A DNA stretch of 32,201 nt, taken from assembly GCA_028287525.1 (NCBI GenBank), contig JAQBPM010000313.1:1-32201 (forward strand). Reading direction: 5' to 3'. Shown here piece after piece: positions 15,267 through 30,592 of the stretch (its first letter is position 1; the number at the start of each line of letters is the position of its first letter). Below the pieces are notes generated by a model, which was not told the DNA's origin, made no database searches, and saw only the letters and a program-made list of their open reading frames with translations. Position numbers and translations under genes: made by a program. The DNA comes from Vulcanimicrobiota bacterium. Its GTDB lineage: Bacteria; Vulcanimicrobiota; Vulcanimicrobiia; Vulcanimicrobiales; Vulcanimicrobiaceae.

Positions 15267-16265
15267 TTGCAGACTCGTCCCACGCTCGAAGCGTTCGAGC
15301 ACTATCTGGAGAGCGCCATCGACCGGCTCGATGACGGCTCTCCGAACAGGGCGCTGATCCGCGAGCATTTCGCGCTCGACGATCCGCACGGCAAGCGCGG
15401 GAAGCGCCTGCGCCCGCGCATCCTGCTCAGCGTCGCCGAGACGGAAGGGGGCGGCGCCGAGCGCGCCTTTCCCGCGGCCGCGGCGCTCGAGCTGCTGCAC
15501 AACTTCTCGCTGGTCCACGACGACATCGAGGACCGCGACGAACTGCGTCACGGGCGGCCGACGCTGTGGGCGCGTTTCGGCATCCCGGCGGCGCTCGAAG
15601 CGGGCAACGCATTGTGCGCGCTCAGCTACCTTACGCTGATGAACGACACGGACGGTCTTCCCGCGGCGACCGTCGCGGCGATGGCCTCCGCGCTCTATCA
15701 CGCGCACTATCGCATGTGCCAGGGTCAAGCGTACGACATCGGGTTCGAGACGGCGCCGTCCGTATCGTTCGGCGAGTACGTCACGATGATCGAAGGAAAG
15801 ACCGCCGCGCTGTTCGCCGCGGCGTGCGAACTCGGCGCGCTCGCCGCCGGCGCGTCGCGCGAACGTGCCGCCGCCTACGCGCGCGTCGGCCGCGCGTACG
15901 GTTTGGCGTTCCAAGTGCGCGACGACGTGCTCGGGACGTGGGGCGCGACGCACGAGACCGGCAAGCCGAGCGGCGCGGACATCCGCCGCCGCAAATGGTC
16001 GTTCCCGGTGGTCTGGTCGCTGGACGGAAGCCCCTCCGCCGATCGCGCGACGATCGCCGATGCGTACGCGTCGATCGGCGAGATCGACGACGCGCGCGCC
16101 GAGCAGGTGATCGCCGCGCTCGAGCGCCTCGGCGCTCAGACCGCCGCCGACAACGCGTGCAACGCCTACATCGCGGAAGCGAACAGCATCGCCGCCGAAC
16201 ACGATCTCGACCGCGACGGCCGCCTCGCCGAGATCTTCACCTCCACCGCCCGCCGCACCGCGTAG
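15267..16265 (+). CDS. Polyprenyl (farnesyl/geranylgeranyl-type) diphosphate synthase
   Basis: TTG start; GKRLRPRILL, LLHNFSLVHDDIEDRDELRHGRPTLW (first Asp-rich motif), FQVRDDVLGTWGATHETGKPSGADI. Confidence 0.88.
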   Translation: MQTRPTLEAFEHYLESAIDRLDDGSPNRALIREHFALDDPHGKRGKRLRPRILLSVAETEGGGAERAFPAAAALELLHNFSLVHDDIEDRDELRHGRPTLWARFGIPAALEAGNALCALSYLTLMNDTDGLPAATVAAMASALYHAHYRMCQGQAYDIGFETAPSVSFGEYVTMIEGKTAALFAAACELGALAAGASRERAAAYARVGRAYGLAFQVRDDVLGTWGATHETGKPSGADIRRRKWSFPVVWSLDGSPSADRATIADAYASIGEIDDARAEQVIAALERLGAQTAADNACNAYIAEANSIAAEHDLDRDGRLAEIFTSTARRTA

Positions 16266-16268
16266 CCC

Positions 16269-16348
16269 CGTCACCCTGAGCGCCTTTATCGGCATCGAAG
16301 GGCGAGTGGACGGGCCCAAACCCTTGTCATCCTGAGCTTGTCGAAGGG
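16269..16348 (+). repeat. Left inverted-repeat arm of a GIY-YIG element
   Basis: ...ggcatcgaagggcg-agtggacgggcccaaacccttgtcatcctgagcttgtcgaaggg; near-identical to the reverse complement of 16761-16848. Confidence 0.85.
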
Positions 16349-16395
16349 CGCTCTGGGCGGGCTCAAACCGTTGTCATCCTGAGCTTGTCGAAGGG
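16326..16395 (+). repeat. Tandem GTCATCCTGAGCTTGTCGAAGGG units (47-bp offset)
   Basis: Identical 23-mers at 16326-16348 and 16373-16395, with related intervening sequence. Confidence 0.85.
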
Positions 16396-16688
16396 TGGTT
16401 CGGTCCGTGGACATGTGATAAGCGACGGATTTCGTTCCAATCGCCGGCGATCAACGCCCGTTTTTTCGCGCGACGCCAGCCTTTGAGACGCTTCTCGGCA
16501 AAGATCGCCTCGTCAGGGGTCGAGAACGATTGTACGTATACGAGCTTCACCGGGCGGCGGTGGTGCGTGTAACACGCAGGATCCCAGCCGCTCGCGTGTT
16601 GCGCGACGCGCACGTCCACGTTTGAGCTAACGCCGACGTAGTAGCTGTCGTCCCGGCATTCGAGCATGTAGACCCAATATTGCTTCAC
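16374..16688 (-). CDS. Small GIY-YIG nuclease-domain protein (YhbQ/UPF0213-like)
   Basis: Candidate GTG start 16688: MKQYWVYMLECRDDSYYVGVSSNVDVRVAQHASG...AIFAEKRLKGWRRAKKRALI; stop codon inside the left repeat (tail ...HPSTSSG*). The ORF track extends it to TTG 16772. Confidence 0.85.
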   Translation of the reverse strand: MKQYWVYMLECRDDSYYVGVSSNVDVRVAQHASGWDPACYTHHRRPVKLVYVQSFSTPDEAIFAEKRLKGWRRAKKRALIAGDWNEIRRLSHVHGPNHPSTSSG

Positions 16689-16760
16689 GCCGGTACAGTC
16701 GCGACGAACGCACCCTTCGGCAAGCGCACGGCGTCCTGCGTCGCGGCGCGATCGGGGCTC

Positions 16761-16848
16761 ATCCTTCGACAAGCTCAGGATGACAGGGGCTTAGGCCCGT
16801 CCACTGCGCCCTTCGATGACTTTAGCGGCGCTCGGGGTGGGGTGACAG
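16761..16848 (-). repeat. Right inverted-repeat arm of the GIY-YIG element
   Basis: Reverse complement reads gtcatcgaagggcgcagtggacgggcctaagcccctgtcatcctgagcttgtcgaagga. Confidence 0.85.
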
Positions 16849-16858
16849 CGATTTGCTC

Positions 16859-17338
16859 TCAGCGGCGGATCAGTACGACGCCGGCGACCAGCAGGAGGGC
16901 GCCGAGCACGCGTAGCGGGTCGACCGGATGTTTCGGGGTGCCGAACCACCCGAATTGGTCGAACGCGAGCGACGCGATCATCTGCCCGAGCACGAAGAGC
17001 GCGATCAGCGCTGCGGTGCCGAGCCGCGGCAGCAGCAGGATGATGATCACCACGTACACCGCGCCGAACGCGCCGCCGAGCCACGACCACCACGGCGCGT
17101 TCGCGACCGCCATCCCGTTCGGCCACGGGTCGCGCGTGACCAGGACGATCGCGGCCATGACCAGGGTCCCGCCGGCGTAACTGATCAGCGCCGACCAGTT
17201 CGGCGAGTTCAGCCCCGTGCGCAAGTTGGCGTTCACGCTCGCCTGCAGCACGAAGCTCACCCCGGCCGCGATCGCCAAGAGCGCCAGAGCCCCGAGCCCG
17301 ACCGCCTCCCGCATCATCCAGGTTCTTGAAGCGTTCAT
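16859..17338 (-). CDS. DMT superfamily YdcZ/DUF606-type transporter
   Basis: 159 aa with ~5 TM segments; GVSFVLQASVNANLRTGLNSPNWSALISYAGGTLVMA; LIALFVLGQMIASLAFDQFGWFG. Confidence 0.82.
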   Translation of the reverse strand: MNASRTWMMREAVGLGALALLAIAAGVSFVLQASVNANLRTGLNSPNWSALISYAGGTLVMAAIVLVTRDPWPNGMAVANAPWWSWLGGAFGAVYVVIIILLLPRLGTAALIALFVLGQMIASLAFDQFGWFGTPKHPVDPLRVLGALLLVAGVVLIRR

Positions 17339-17355: not shown

Positions 17356-18654
17356 ATGAGCCGCAGCGCCGCGAACCTGATCTTTCAGCCGGAGTTCGAG
17401 ACGCTCGAACGCCACGCGCTGGAAGCCCTGCAGCTGGAGCGCCTGCGCGCGCTCGTCGACCGGCTCCGTGATGCCAACGACATCTACCGGGAGCGCCTGC
17501 GCGGCCGCGCGACGCCCGAGGGGCTCGACGGGCTGGCGGACCTGCCGTTCAGCACGAAGGCCGATATGCGCGACGCCTATCCGCTCGGTCTGCTGGCGGT
17601 CGGGGAACGCGACCTCGCCCGCATCCACGCCTCCTCGGGTACGACCGGGACTCCGACGGTCGGCGCGTACACGCGCAAGGATCTCGACGTGTTCGGCGAG
17701 GTCATGGCGCGCAGTCTCGCGGCGGGCGGAATTCGTCCGGGCGACATGTTTCAGGTGGCTTGGGGATACGGGCTCTTCACCGGCGGCCTCGGCGCGCACG
17801 GCGGGTGTGAGACGCTCGGCGCGTGCGCGATCCCGGCCTCGGCGGGAAACACCAGCCGCCAAATGCAGCTGCTCGCCGACCTGCCGGTGATCGGGATCGG
17901 CGCGACGCCGAGCTACCTGCTCGTCCTGGCCGAACGATTCCGCGCCGAGAACCGCCGTCCGAAGGCGCTGCGCTACGCGATCTGCGGCGCCGAAGCGTGG
18001 ACGCGCGAGATGCGCGCGTCGCTCGAAGAACTCTTCGGCGTCATCGCGACGAACATCTACGGGCTCACCGAGATCATCGGCCCGGGCGTCGCGCAAGAGT
18101 GTTTGGAAAAAGCCGGCATGCACGTTCAGGAGGATCACTTCCTGGCGGAGATCGTCGATCCCGAGAGCGGCAAGCCGCTCCCCGACGGTGAGCGCGGCGA
18201 ACTGGTGCTCACGACGCTCACGCGCGACGCGATGCCCGTGCTGCGCTACCGCACGCGCGACCTCACCTCGATGGTCCGCGAACGGTGCGCCTGCGGCCGG
18301 ACGACCGCCCGGATCGATTGGTTCACCGGACGCGTCGATGACATGCTGGTGATTCGCGGCGTCAACGTCTTTCCGTCGGCGGTCGAGGAAGTATTGCTGC
18401 GCTTCCCGGAGCTCTCGCCGAACTACCGCATCTTCGTCGACCGTCCGCCGAACGGATTGGACGAGATGCTGGTCGAGGTCGAACATCACCCCGAAGCGTC
18501 GATCGACGACCTCGACCGTCTCGCCGCGGTCGTCACCGCGCGCATCTCGGAGACGCTGCTGGTGTCGCTGCGCACGAGCGTCGTCGCGCCGGGAACGATC
18601 GAGCGGATCGAAGCCGGCAAAGCCAAGCGCGTCATCGATCGGAGAACCCTGTGA
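17356..18654 (+). CDS. paaK: Phenylacetate-CoA ligase-like adenylate-forming enzyme
   Basis: LPFSTKADMRDAYPLGLLAV, HASSGTTGTPTVGAYT, YGLTEIIGPGVAQEC, MLVIRGVNVFPSAVEEVLL. Confidence 0.87.
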   Translation: MSRSAANLIFQPEFETLERHALEALQLERLRALVDRLRDANDIYRERLRGRATPEGLDGLADLPFSTKADMRDAYPLGLLAVGERDLARIHASSGTTGTPTVGAYTRKDLDVFGEVMARSLAAGGIRPGDMFQVAWGYGLFTGGLGAHGGCETLGACAIPASAGNTSRQMQLLADLPVIGIGATPSYLLVLAERFRAENRRPKALRYAICGAEAWTREMRASLEELFGVIATNIYGLTEIIGPGVAQECLEKAGMHVQEDHFLAEIVDPESGKPLPDGERGELVLTTLTRDAMPVLRYRTRDLTSMVRERCACGRTTARIDWFTGRVDDMLVIRGVNVFPSAVEEVLLRFPELSPNYRIFVDRPPNGLDEMLVEVEHHPEASIDDLDRLAAVVTARISETLLVSLRTSVVAPGTIERIEAGKAKRVIDRRTL

Positions 18655-19404
18655 GCGAACCGCTGGTCCTCATCGAGCGCCCGTCGCCGCACGTGCTGCT
18701 GCTGCGGCTCAACCGGCCGAAGGTGCTCAACGCGCTCTCGAACGCGGTGATCGCGCAGCTCGGCGACGCGCTCGAAGCGGCCGACCTGGACGGCGAGACG
18801 CGCGGTCGTCATCACCGGCGACGAACGGGCGTTCGCGGCCGGCGGCGACATCGCCGAGTTCGCCGGCGAGGGACCGCGGCTCGAGGAATGGGATCGCCTC
18901 TGGGCCTGCGGGCTTCCGCTGATCGCAGCCGTGCGGGGTCTCGCGTTCGGGGGCGGGCTCGAGCTCGCGATGTCGTGCGATCTGCTCGTCGTCGCGGAGA
19001 ACGCGCGCCTGGGACAGCCGGAGATCAATCTCGGCGTGATGCCGGGCGCCGGCGGGACCCAGCGGCTGACCCGCGCCGTCGGCAAAACGATTGCCACCGA
19101 GATGGTGCTGCTCGGCCGGGAGATCAGCGGCCGTGACGCGGAAGCGCACGGGCTCGCGAACCGCTGCGTCCCGCCCGAGCGCGTGCTCCCGGTCGCGCTG
19201 GATCTCGCGAAGGCCCTCGCCCGCCAAGCGCCGCACGCGGTGCGGGTCGCGAAGCGCGCGATCGCGCAGGCATTCGAGCAGTCGCTGCACGGCTCGCTGC
19301 TCGACGAGCGGCGCGCCTTCATGGCGCTCCTGCAATCCGACGACGCGCGCGAGGGCGTCGCGGCATTCCTTGAGAAGCGCAAGCCGACATGGCACGGACG
19401 ATGA
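18651..19404 (+). pseudogene. Enoyl-CoA hydratase/isomerase with apparent frameshift at about 18799-18806
   Basis: 5' frame MSEPLVLIERPSPHVLLLRLNRPKVLNALS...DLDGETR continues in another frame as AVVITGDERAFAAGGDIAEF...RGLAFGGGLELAMSCDLLVVAENARLGQPEINLGVMPGAGGTQRL...KRKPTWHGR. Confidence 0.82.
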
Positions 19405-30568: not shown

Positions 30569-30592
30569 CCCTTCGACGCTCAGGGTGACAAC
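30569..30592. repeat. Dispersed repeat copy D (single unit)
   Basis: cccttcgacGCTCAGGGTGACaac between the divergent thiolase and monooxygenase genes. Confidence 0.55.

Follow-up and report, generated by a model that had tools for sequence, protein, structure and literature searches.

We found that a stand-alone gene for a small GIY-YIG protein is framed by inverted, tagged hairpin repeats, and the association of these repeats with the gene is real, general and specific. The framing is confined to two GIY-YIG clades, across many phyla, while other GIY-YIG genes are not framed. The gene lies in the window, the whole stretch of 32,201 nucleotides that was analysed (Vulcanimicrobiota bacterium, contig JAQBPM010000313.1). 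The best explanation, which we consider likely, is a REPtron-like mobile unit in which the GIY-YIG protein would mobilise these REPs in the manner of a RAYT, by means of an unrelated nuclease fold. Our data show the framing and how specific it is, the hairpin, a link of repeat number to the presence of the gene, and a whole unit that is present or absent at fixed sites. Recognition, binding, cleavage, insertion and transposition are inferred, and no movement was observed. A previous sequence-only reading of the locus had suggested a system that resembles RAYTs but uses a nuclease of unrelated fold; this proposal was supported, with binding, nicking and strand transfer being inferred.

The window locus, its hairpins and its protein

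The repeat of the window is a tagged hairpin, TGTC-ATCCTGAGCTTGTCGAAGG, with inverted copies on either side of the GIY-YIG gene, which is the sole ORF with a family match inside the repeat pair. The features are as follows.

16374..16688, minus strand: GIY-YIG nuclease gene (104 aa, GTG start, TGA stop)
16461..16682, minus strand: GIY-YIG catalytic domain, PF01541 (E=4.5e-16 for the ORF)
16270..16301, plus strand: outer left REP, longer-loop form GTCACCCTGAGCGCC..ATCGAAGG
16326..16347, plus strand: left REP, GTCATCCTGAGCTTGTCGAAGG
16373..16394, plus strand: innermost left REP, overlapping the 3' end of the GIY-YIG gene
16763..16784, minus strand: right REP, inverted relative to the left REPs
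16810..16846, minus strand: outer right REP, degenerate counterpart of 16270-16301
30570..30589, minus strand: solo REP of this repeat class, away from the GIY-YIG unit, GTCACCCTGAGCGTCGAAGG
ending at 16265, plus strand: polyprenyl synthase gene, flanking the GIY-YIG unit
16859-17338, minus strand: YdcZ-type DMT exporter gene, flanking the GIY-YIG unit

The polyprenyl synthase and YdcZ-type exporter genes are convergent around the unit, and the TGA stop of the GIY-YIG gene comes from part of the tag (GTCA on the other strand) of the innermost left REP. The arms at 16305-16347 and 16763-16805 are 93% complementary, and those lying outward (16272-16304 and 16807-16839) are 82% complementary. At the density of the repeat in the genome, any one gene has a chance of about 5e-5 of being flanked by REP copies at no more than 150 bp on each side. 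Most of what the sequence-only reading had described at this locus was confirmed, namely the coordinates and content of a GIY-YIG ORF of about 104 aa, the stop codon within the left repeat, the near-identical inverted arms with weaker similarity outward, and the position between two convergent genes. Its single inverted repeat of about 80 nt did not hold: the arms are several tagged hairpins, three on the left and two on the right, arranged in tandem and inverted. No matches for the locus were found in PHROGs, PADLOC or NCBIfam, nor in Rfam, where a 1-kb stretch was searched and the repeat region gave no match. Further along the window (18651-19404, plus strand), an enoyl-CoA hydratase-like reading is split over the overlapping frames 18651-19136 and 18931-19404, by a frameshift or an assembly error.

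The genome of the window (G000) is a fragmented MAG of 4.5 Mb. Counted at up to 3 mismatches, the repeat core CATCCTGAGCTTGTCGAAGG has 216 copies in it, compared with 1 for the reversed pattern used as control. Many of these copies form convergent pairs with core starts 79-81 bp apart, in units of about 108 bp; such an inverted pair folds end to end (-60.1 kcal/mol, z -17), and the pairs resemble REPINs. Only two GIY-YIG matches were detected in this genome, the window gene and one in a 681-aa frame, which we take to be UvrC.

The repeat is conserved as structure more than as sequence. We compared 48 loci picked solely for carrying the core GAGCNNGYCGA. Apart from the constant T-A pair, the stem has three pairs, and these were complementary at 47, 47 and 42 of the loci, against expectations of 32, 19 and 16; the exchanges seen in the stem were C-G, G-C, T-A and A-T. 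Stem covariation was 0.592, compared with 0.152 for shuffled data (0 of 500 shuffles), and it collapsed on sliding the partners. Only the GAG/CGA core and the 5' tag are kept across the repeats; as inferred from sequence alone, two G-A mismatches would lie side by side in the core, with G-C closing them. The 5' tags fall into the classes TGTC/CGTC, CGTTC and CGCTC, and placing tag class on the protein tree required 8 changes, compared with 26 for shuffled labels, a result partly confounded with phylum. Nested hairpins were observed in three Sphingomonas loci (L106, L126 and L146), with one GAG/CGA hairpin in the loop of another and both stems complementary.

The sole domain match of the protein is to PF01541 GIY-YIG, with no HUH motif and no Y1 transposase match. 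The two motif tyrosines, the glycine, the arginine and the glutamate are invariant or nearly so in the alignment, which also keeps lysines. The protein meets the active-site residue criterion of a GIY-YIG nuclease, and DNA cleavage is inferred. AlphaFold2 gave a confident fold (pLDDT 96.7), predicted to be nearest to the UPF0213 proteins and then to Slx1, a branched-DNA nuclease. The closest solved structures by sequence and fold are 1zg2 and 1ywl (UPF0213/YhbQ-like).

Framing and repeat number in type A genomes

We refer to the window's kind of GIY-YIG genes and repeats, with the GAG/CGA core, as type A. In the window's relatives, stand-alone type A genes are each bracketed by inverted, lineage-specific repeats, the lineage versions being GTCATCCTGAGC.., GTCACGCTGAGC.., GTCATCCCGAGCGTAG.. 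and GTCACCCTGAGGAG... The inverted-repeat score was 13-95 for the type A loci in these relatives and 8-11 for the other GIY-YIG genes of the same genomes, the unframed genes being YhbQ-like and others. Within the window's genus, the place of the GIY-YIG gene differs in every member that has it. A scan of GTDB species yielded 80 loci in nine named phyla, 68 of which had at least 20 control positions in their contig. At 49 of these 68 loci, spanning seven phyla, the inverted match around the gene was stronger than at any control position of its contig, where 1.25 such loci were expected; at the other 19 of the 68 it was not above all control positions. Within 150 bp of the gene, the hairpin motif, defined here as GAG..CGA inside a 5-bp stem, has a density of 4.7-4.9 per kb, compared with 0.07 at 5-10 kb (about 70-fold), and six shuffled cores gave no comparable peak near the gene. 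Moreover, the orientation of the repeats is inverted around the gene (54 plus and 24 minus upstream, 32 plus and 59 minus downstream). Co-conservation of the inverted repeats in other genomes, suggested in the sequence-only reading as a check, was found across phyla, far beyond the window's clade. The first outcome that would have refuted the proposal, homologues without repeats at a fixed syntenic position, was not met, as positions vary and the homologues are framed.

Gene presence is also linked to repeat number. Among genomes of the window's family, the 51 that carry the gene have a median of 93 copies of the searched pattern (minimum 16); the 46 genomes without it have a median of 11.5, or 2 for the 24 of them that are at least 90% complete (p=1.5e-8 for the 51 against these 24; within-genus permutation p=6e-4). 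The two nearest families, which lack a type A gene, have 0-4 copies. In the Sphingomonas-centred family, where only one repeat core was counted, the medians are 38 for 87 genomes with the gene and 2 for 160 without (p=8e-20). The other refuting outcome, repeats equally abundant without the gene, was thus not met. The Sphingomonas-centred family has exceptions of both kinds: the counted core is present in fewer than 5 copies in 11 genomes that carry the gene, and in 30 or more in 17 genomes where no gene was detected. These could arise from repeat variants, decayed genes or limits of the gene search. Two siblings of the window's genome carry remnants of the gene, a frameshifted copy in one (G009:C6:1015290-1015567) and a 3' remnant in the other (G002:C10:19395-19505); both genomes are still repeat-rich, as expected if the gene decays while the repeats persist.

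The paired repeats on contig C1 of genome G405 are all convergent and 42-63 bp apart, and the gene lies inside one such pair, 346 bp wide. A strand bias of the repeats with replication direction was considered and rejected, because the repeats lie in convergent pairs. As a separate observation, repeat orientation on contigs C4, C6 and C8 of genome G034 (L189-L208) is strongly one-sided per contig, with 0 plus and 17 minus repeats in the sampled stretches of C8, and this bias correlates with GC skew (Spearman -0.70, p=6e-4, 20 stretches). It might reflect a coupling to replication direction; in other genomes, convergent pairs are found instead.

Type B genes, CGTC REPs and fixed sites

CGTC REPs were defined by Di Nocera 2013 (PMC3733652), where they were said to seem to lack a dedicated transposase and where no class of transposase was found to go with them. 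A sister GIY-YIG clade, type B, was first met in locus L018, and its gene is carried by 74 of 369 genomes in the class of a Salinisphaeraceae MAG (G164). The inverted-repeat score was at least 14 in 21 of the 29 testable loci, and tagged hairpins were found on both sides in 20 of the 29, for example CGTC-ATTCCCGC-NNNN-GCGGGAAT-CCA. Hairpin density was 4.0 per kb near the gene, compared with 0.36 beyond 600 bp. By reading the flanks directly, we found the type B gene between sufB and sufC with REP dimers on both sides in Azospirillum lipoferum, framed by CGTC REPs in Novosphingobium aromaticivorans, by dRS3 in Neisseria gonorrhoeae, and by REPs with a CCTC tag in Sinorhizobium meliloti; these framed species are ones named in PMC3733652. 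The type B loci meet all the criteria of CGTC REPs, with the tag CGTC, TGTC or CCTC at one hairpin end, a stem starting with AT, and dimers. The type A repeats of the window meet the tag and dimer criteria but carry an internal mismatch core, and were therefore not filed in the four published CGTC families. The type B framing rests on fewer loci than that of type A, without a comparison of gene presence with repeat number.

The type B unit of gene and repeats is present or absent at orthologous sites. The sufB-sufC gap of A. lipoferum is 617 bp long with the gene and REPs; in Azospirillum ramasamyi, A. oryzae and strain B510 it is 87-129 bp long, with flanks 95-96% identical. Similarly, seven strains of Sphingobium have the gene and REPs between fnrL and a response-regulator gene, and strains TYG72 and TYG65 have neither the gene unit nor a palindrome at this site. 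In TomTYG74 (L272) and TomTYG64 (L273), only a double-tagged palindrome is found there (CCGTCACCCCGGGTCAAGCCCGGGGTGACGG in TYG64), a fusion of two halves, the left one from the left REP and the right one from the right REP. This palindrome may be a deletion via CCCCGGG microhomology, or a step or excision footprint of the process; the present data are compatible with either. At the empty sites, the outer ends coincide with tags, but no clean target-site duplication was seen, the flanks having diverged too far to reveal one. In addition, the terminal bases of short REPIN pairs in Sphingobium plasmids are identical to those of the gene-bearing unit at 35/37 and 30/32 positions. One intergenic site in related Sphingobium plasmids holds a CGTC REPIN in three of the plasmids, a GAG/CGA-type pair in two and neither in one, so that REPIN polymorphism was seen for both types.

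These data on presence or absence of the gene unit are for type B; for the window's own unit, only its non-syntenic position is available. The sequence-only reading had suggested an orthologous region lacking the insert as a means to define the ends and any target-site duplication, and siblings were compared for this. The AMP-ligase gene follows the polyprenyl synthase gene almost directly in three of them (G003, G004 and G009), and after a solo REP in a fourth (G002). A clean empty site for the window's insertion was rejected, because the window also has the ydcZ gene there, and the exact ends of the unit are therefore unreadable from the siblings.

In one genome of the gammaproteobacterial class (G534; L239-L243), copies of the type B gene are up to 96% identical and adjoin remnants resembling an IS5-type transposase, as read by eye. 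An IS may therefore carry the unit in that genome, and the multi-copy gene was for this reason rejected as proof of autonomous movement.

Proposed mechanism, rival explanations and known systems

In the REPtron-like reading, the GIY-YIG protein would recognise the REP as a folded hairpin, which could form in single-stranded DNA during replication or be extruded as a cruciform. Recognition would read the 5' tag (TGTC, CGTC, CGTTC or CGCTC) and the tandem-mismatch GAG/CGA core, and the protein would cut near the hairpin foot. Two inverted REPs would bound the unit that is copied or moved, which may be the gene-bearing unit or, far more often, a short REPIN-like derivative. GIY-YIG enzymes hydrolyse DNA without a covalent protein-DNA intermediate; resealing, copying or insertion would therefore have to be completed by host repair or replication, unlike with the Y1 transposase of RAYTs.

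Four other explanations were weighed. A homing-type spread, in which the protein cuts sites without repeats and host double-strand-break repair copies in the repeat, or the gene and repeat, is unlikely. GIY-YIG domains do occur in homing endonucleases. That of the window protein is small and alone, and the alternative occupants of the one Sphingobium plasmid site (CGTC-type pair, GAG/CGA-type pair or neither) would also suit homing. However, this process needs homologous target flanks, yet the repeats sit at unrelated places, and the covarying stems and conserved tag suggest recognition of the repeat itself and not of an empty target. We give even less weight to a maintenance role, in which a host enzyme would process REP hairpins or cruciforms, or remove them (cf. 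SbcCD, Slx1), and its gene would stay beside these substrates, the repeats being spread by something else. The predicted fold is close to that of Slx1, a structure-specific nuclease, and some genomes are repeat-rich without a detected gene. Against this, a housekeeping gene would stay in synteny and would have no need to lie within a pair of repeats, whereas the gene is patchy, decays to pseudogenes and varies in position, and at fixed sites the gene of the sister clade is found with its repeats in some genomes and is missing along with them in others.

It is also very improbable that the gene is a passenger, that is, cargo or a trapped insertion among repeats spread by an IS, a RAYT or another transposase. 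The IS5-like remnants next to the gene copies of G534 are in its favour. On the other side, the framing is specific to two GIY-YIG clades over many phyla and spares other GIY-YIG genes, CGTC repeats are tied to no transposase class (Di Nocera 2013, PMC3733652), and no other ORF with a family match lies inside the window's pair. Finally, ordinary terminators or mRNA-stability hairpins flanking the gene by chance can be almost entirely dismissed. As a rule, REPs lie between genes, and they can have effects at the RNA level (Di Nocera 2013, PMC3733652), but here the repeats are inverted on both sides, including upstream of the start, their enrichment peaks at the GIY-YIG gene, and the 1-kb stretch searched has no Rfam match. 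The control genes and the profile of repeat density with distance already speak against this explanation.

A bolder form of the REPtron-like reading, to which we lean only slightly, is that two REP superfamilies (CGTC and GAG/CGA) have their dedicated mobilisers in GIY-YIG nucleases, a very widespread new class of bacterial mobile element in which the RAYT lifestyle was reached by convergence with a hydrolytic, host-assisted mechanism. With the arrangement recurring in at least seven bacterial phyla, no better candidate than the GIY-YIG protein has so far been put forward for the missing machinery behind the spread of a large and long-known class of repeats. CGTC-type repeats occupy many bacterial genomes, including those of Neisseria (dRS3) and Rickettsia. 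The candidate enzyme has about 100 residues and is routinely annotated merely as a GIY-YIG nuclease family protein, and the question of the mobiliser becomes directly testable. If the reading is true, these units would be among the smallest mobile systems known, a convergent counterpart of RAYTs with an enzyme that recognises DNA hairpins. It would moreover give a function to many genes known by domain label only and answer a question open since 2013. In the open-access literature searched, no report of a link between GIY-YIG proteins and REPs and no paper on the repeat sequence itself were found; an earlier report of the link in preprints or subscription journals is not excluded.

Several known systems share features with the units described here. 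Free-standing GIY-YIG homing endonucleases have the same catalytic domain and a putative role in genetic mobility, but the conserved partner here is a multi-copy flanking hairpin repeat and not an intron or homing site. UPF0213/YhbQ-like GIY-YIG proteins are of similar size and are the nearest in sequence and fold; those sampled in the window's relatives are however unframed and have a far lower family-profile score. CGTC REPs (PMC3733652; including the dRS3 of Neisseria) have the tag CGTC, TGTC or CCTC, the AT-starting stem, the CCA tail and head-to-head dimers, and exactly these repeats frame the type B genes, while the type A repeats of the window share the tag but form a separate family with a constant GAG/CGA stem core. 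The likeness to RAYT/TnpA-REP systems (REPtrons, GTAG REPs) includes a single small nuclease-type gene between inverted, genome-abundant tagged hairpins, paired inverted copies as short units (REPINs), two hairpin styles, with internal-mismatch stems or perfect palindromes (RAYT data: PMC8266576), and genomes that keep the repeats after loss of the gene. The window protein is nevertheless not a RAYT, because the HUH/Y1 domain is absent: a GIY-YIG (UPF0213/Slx1-like) protein is found here in place of an IS200/IS605 Y1 transposase with its HUH motif, and the tags are TGTC, CGTC, CGTTC and CGCTC in place of GTAG.
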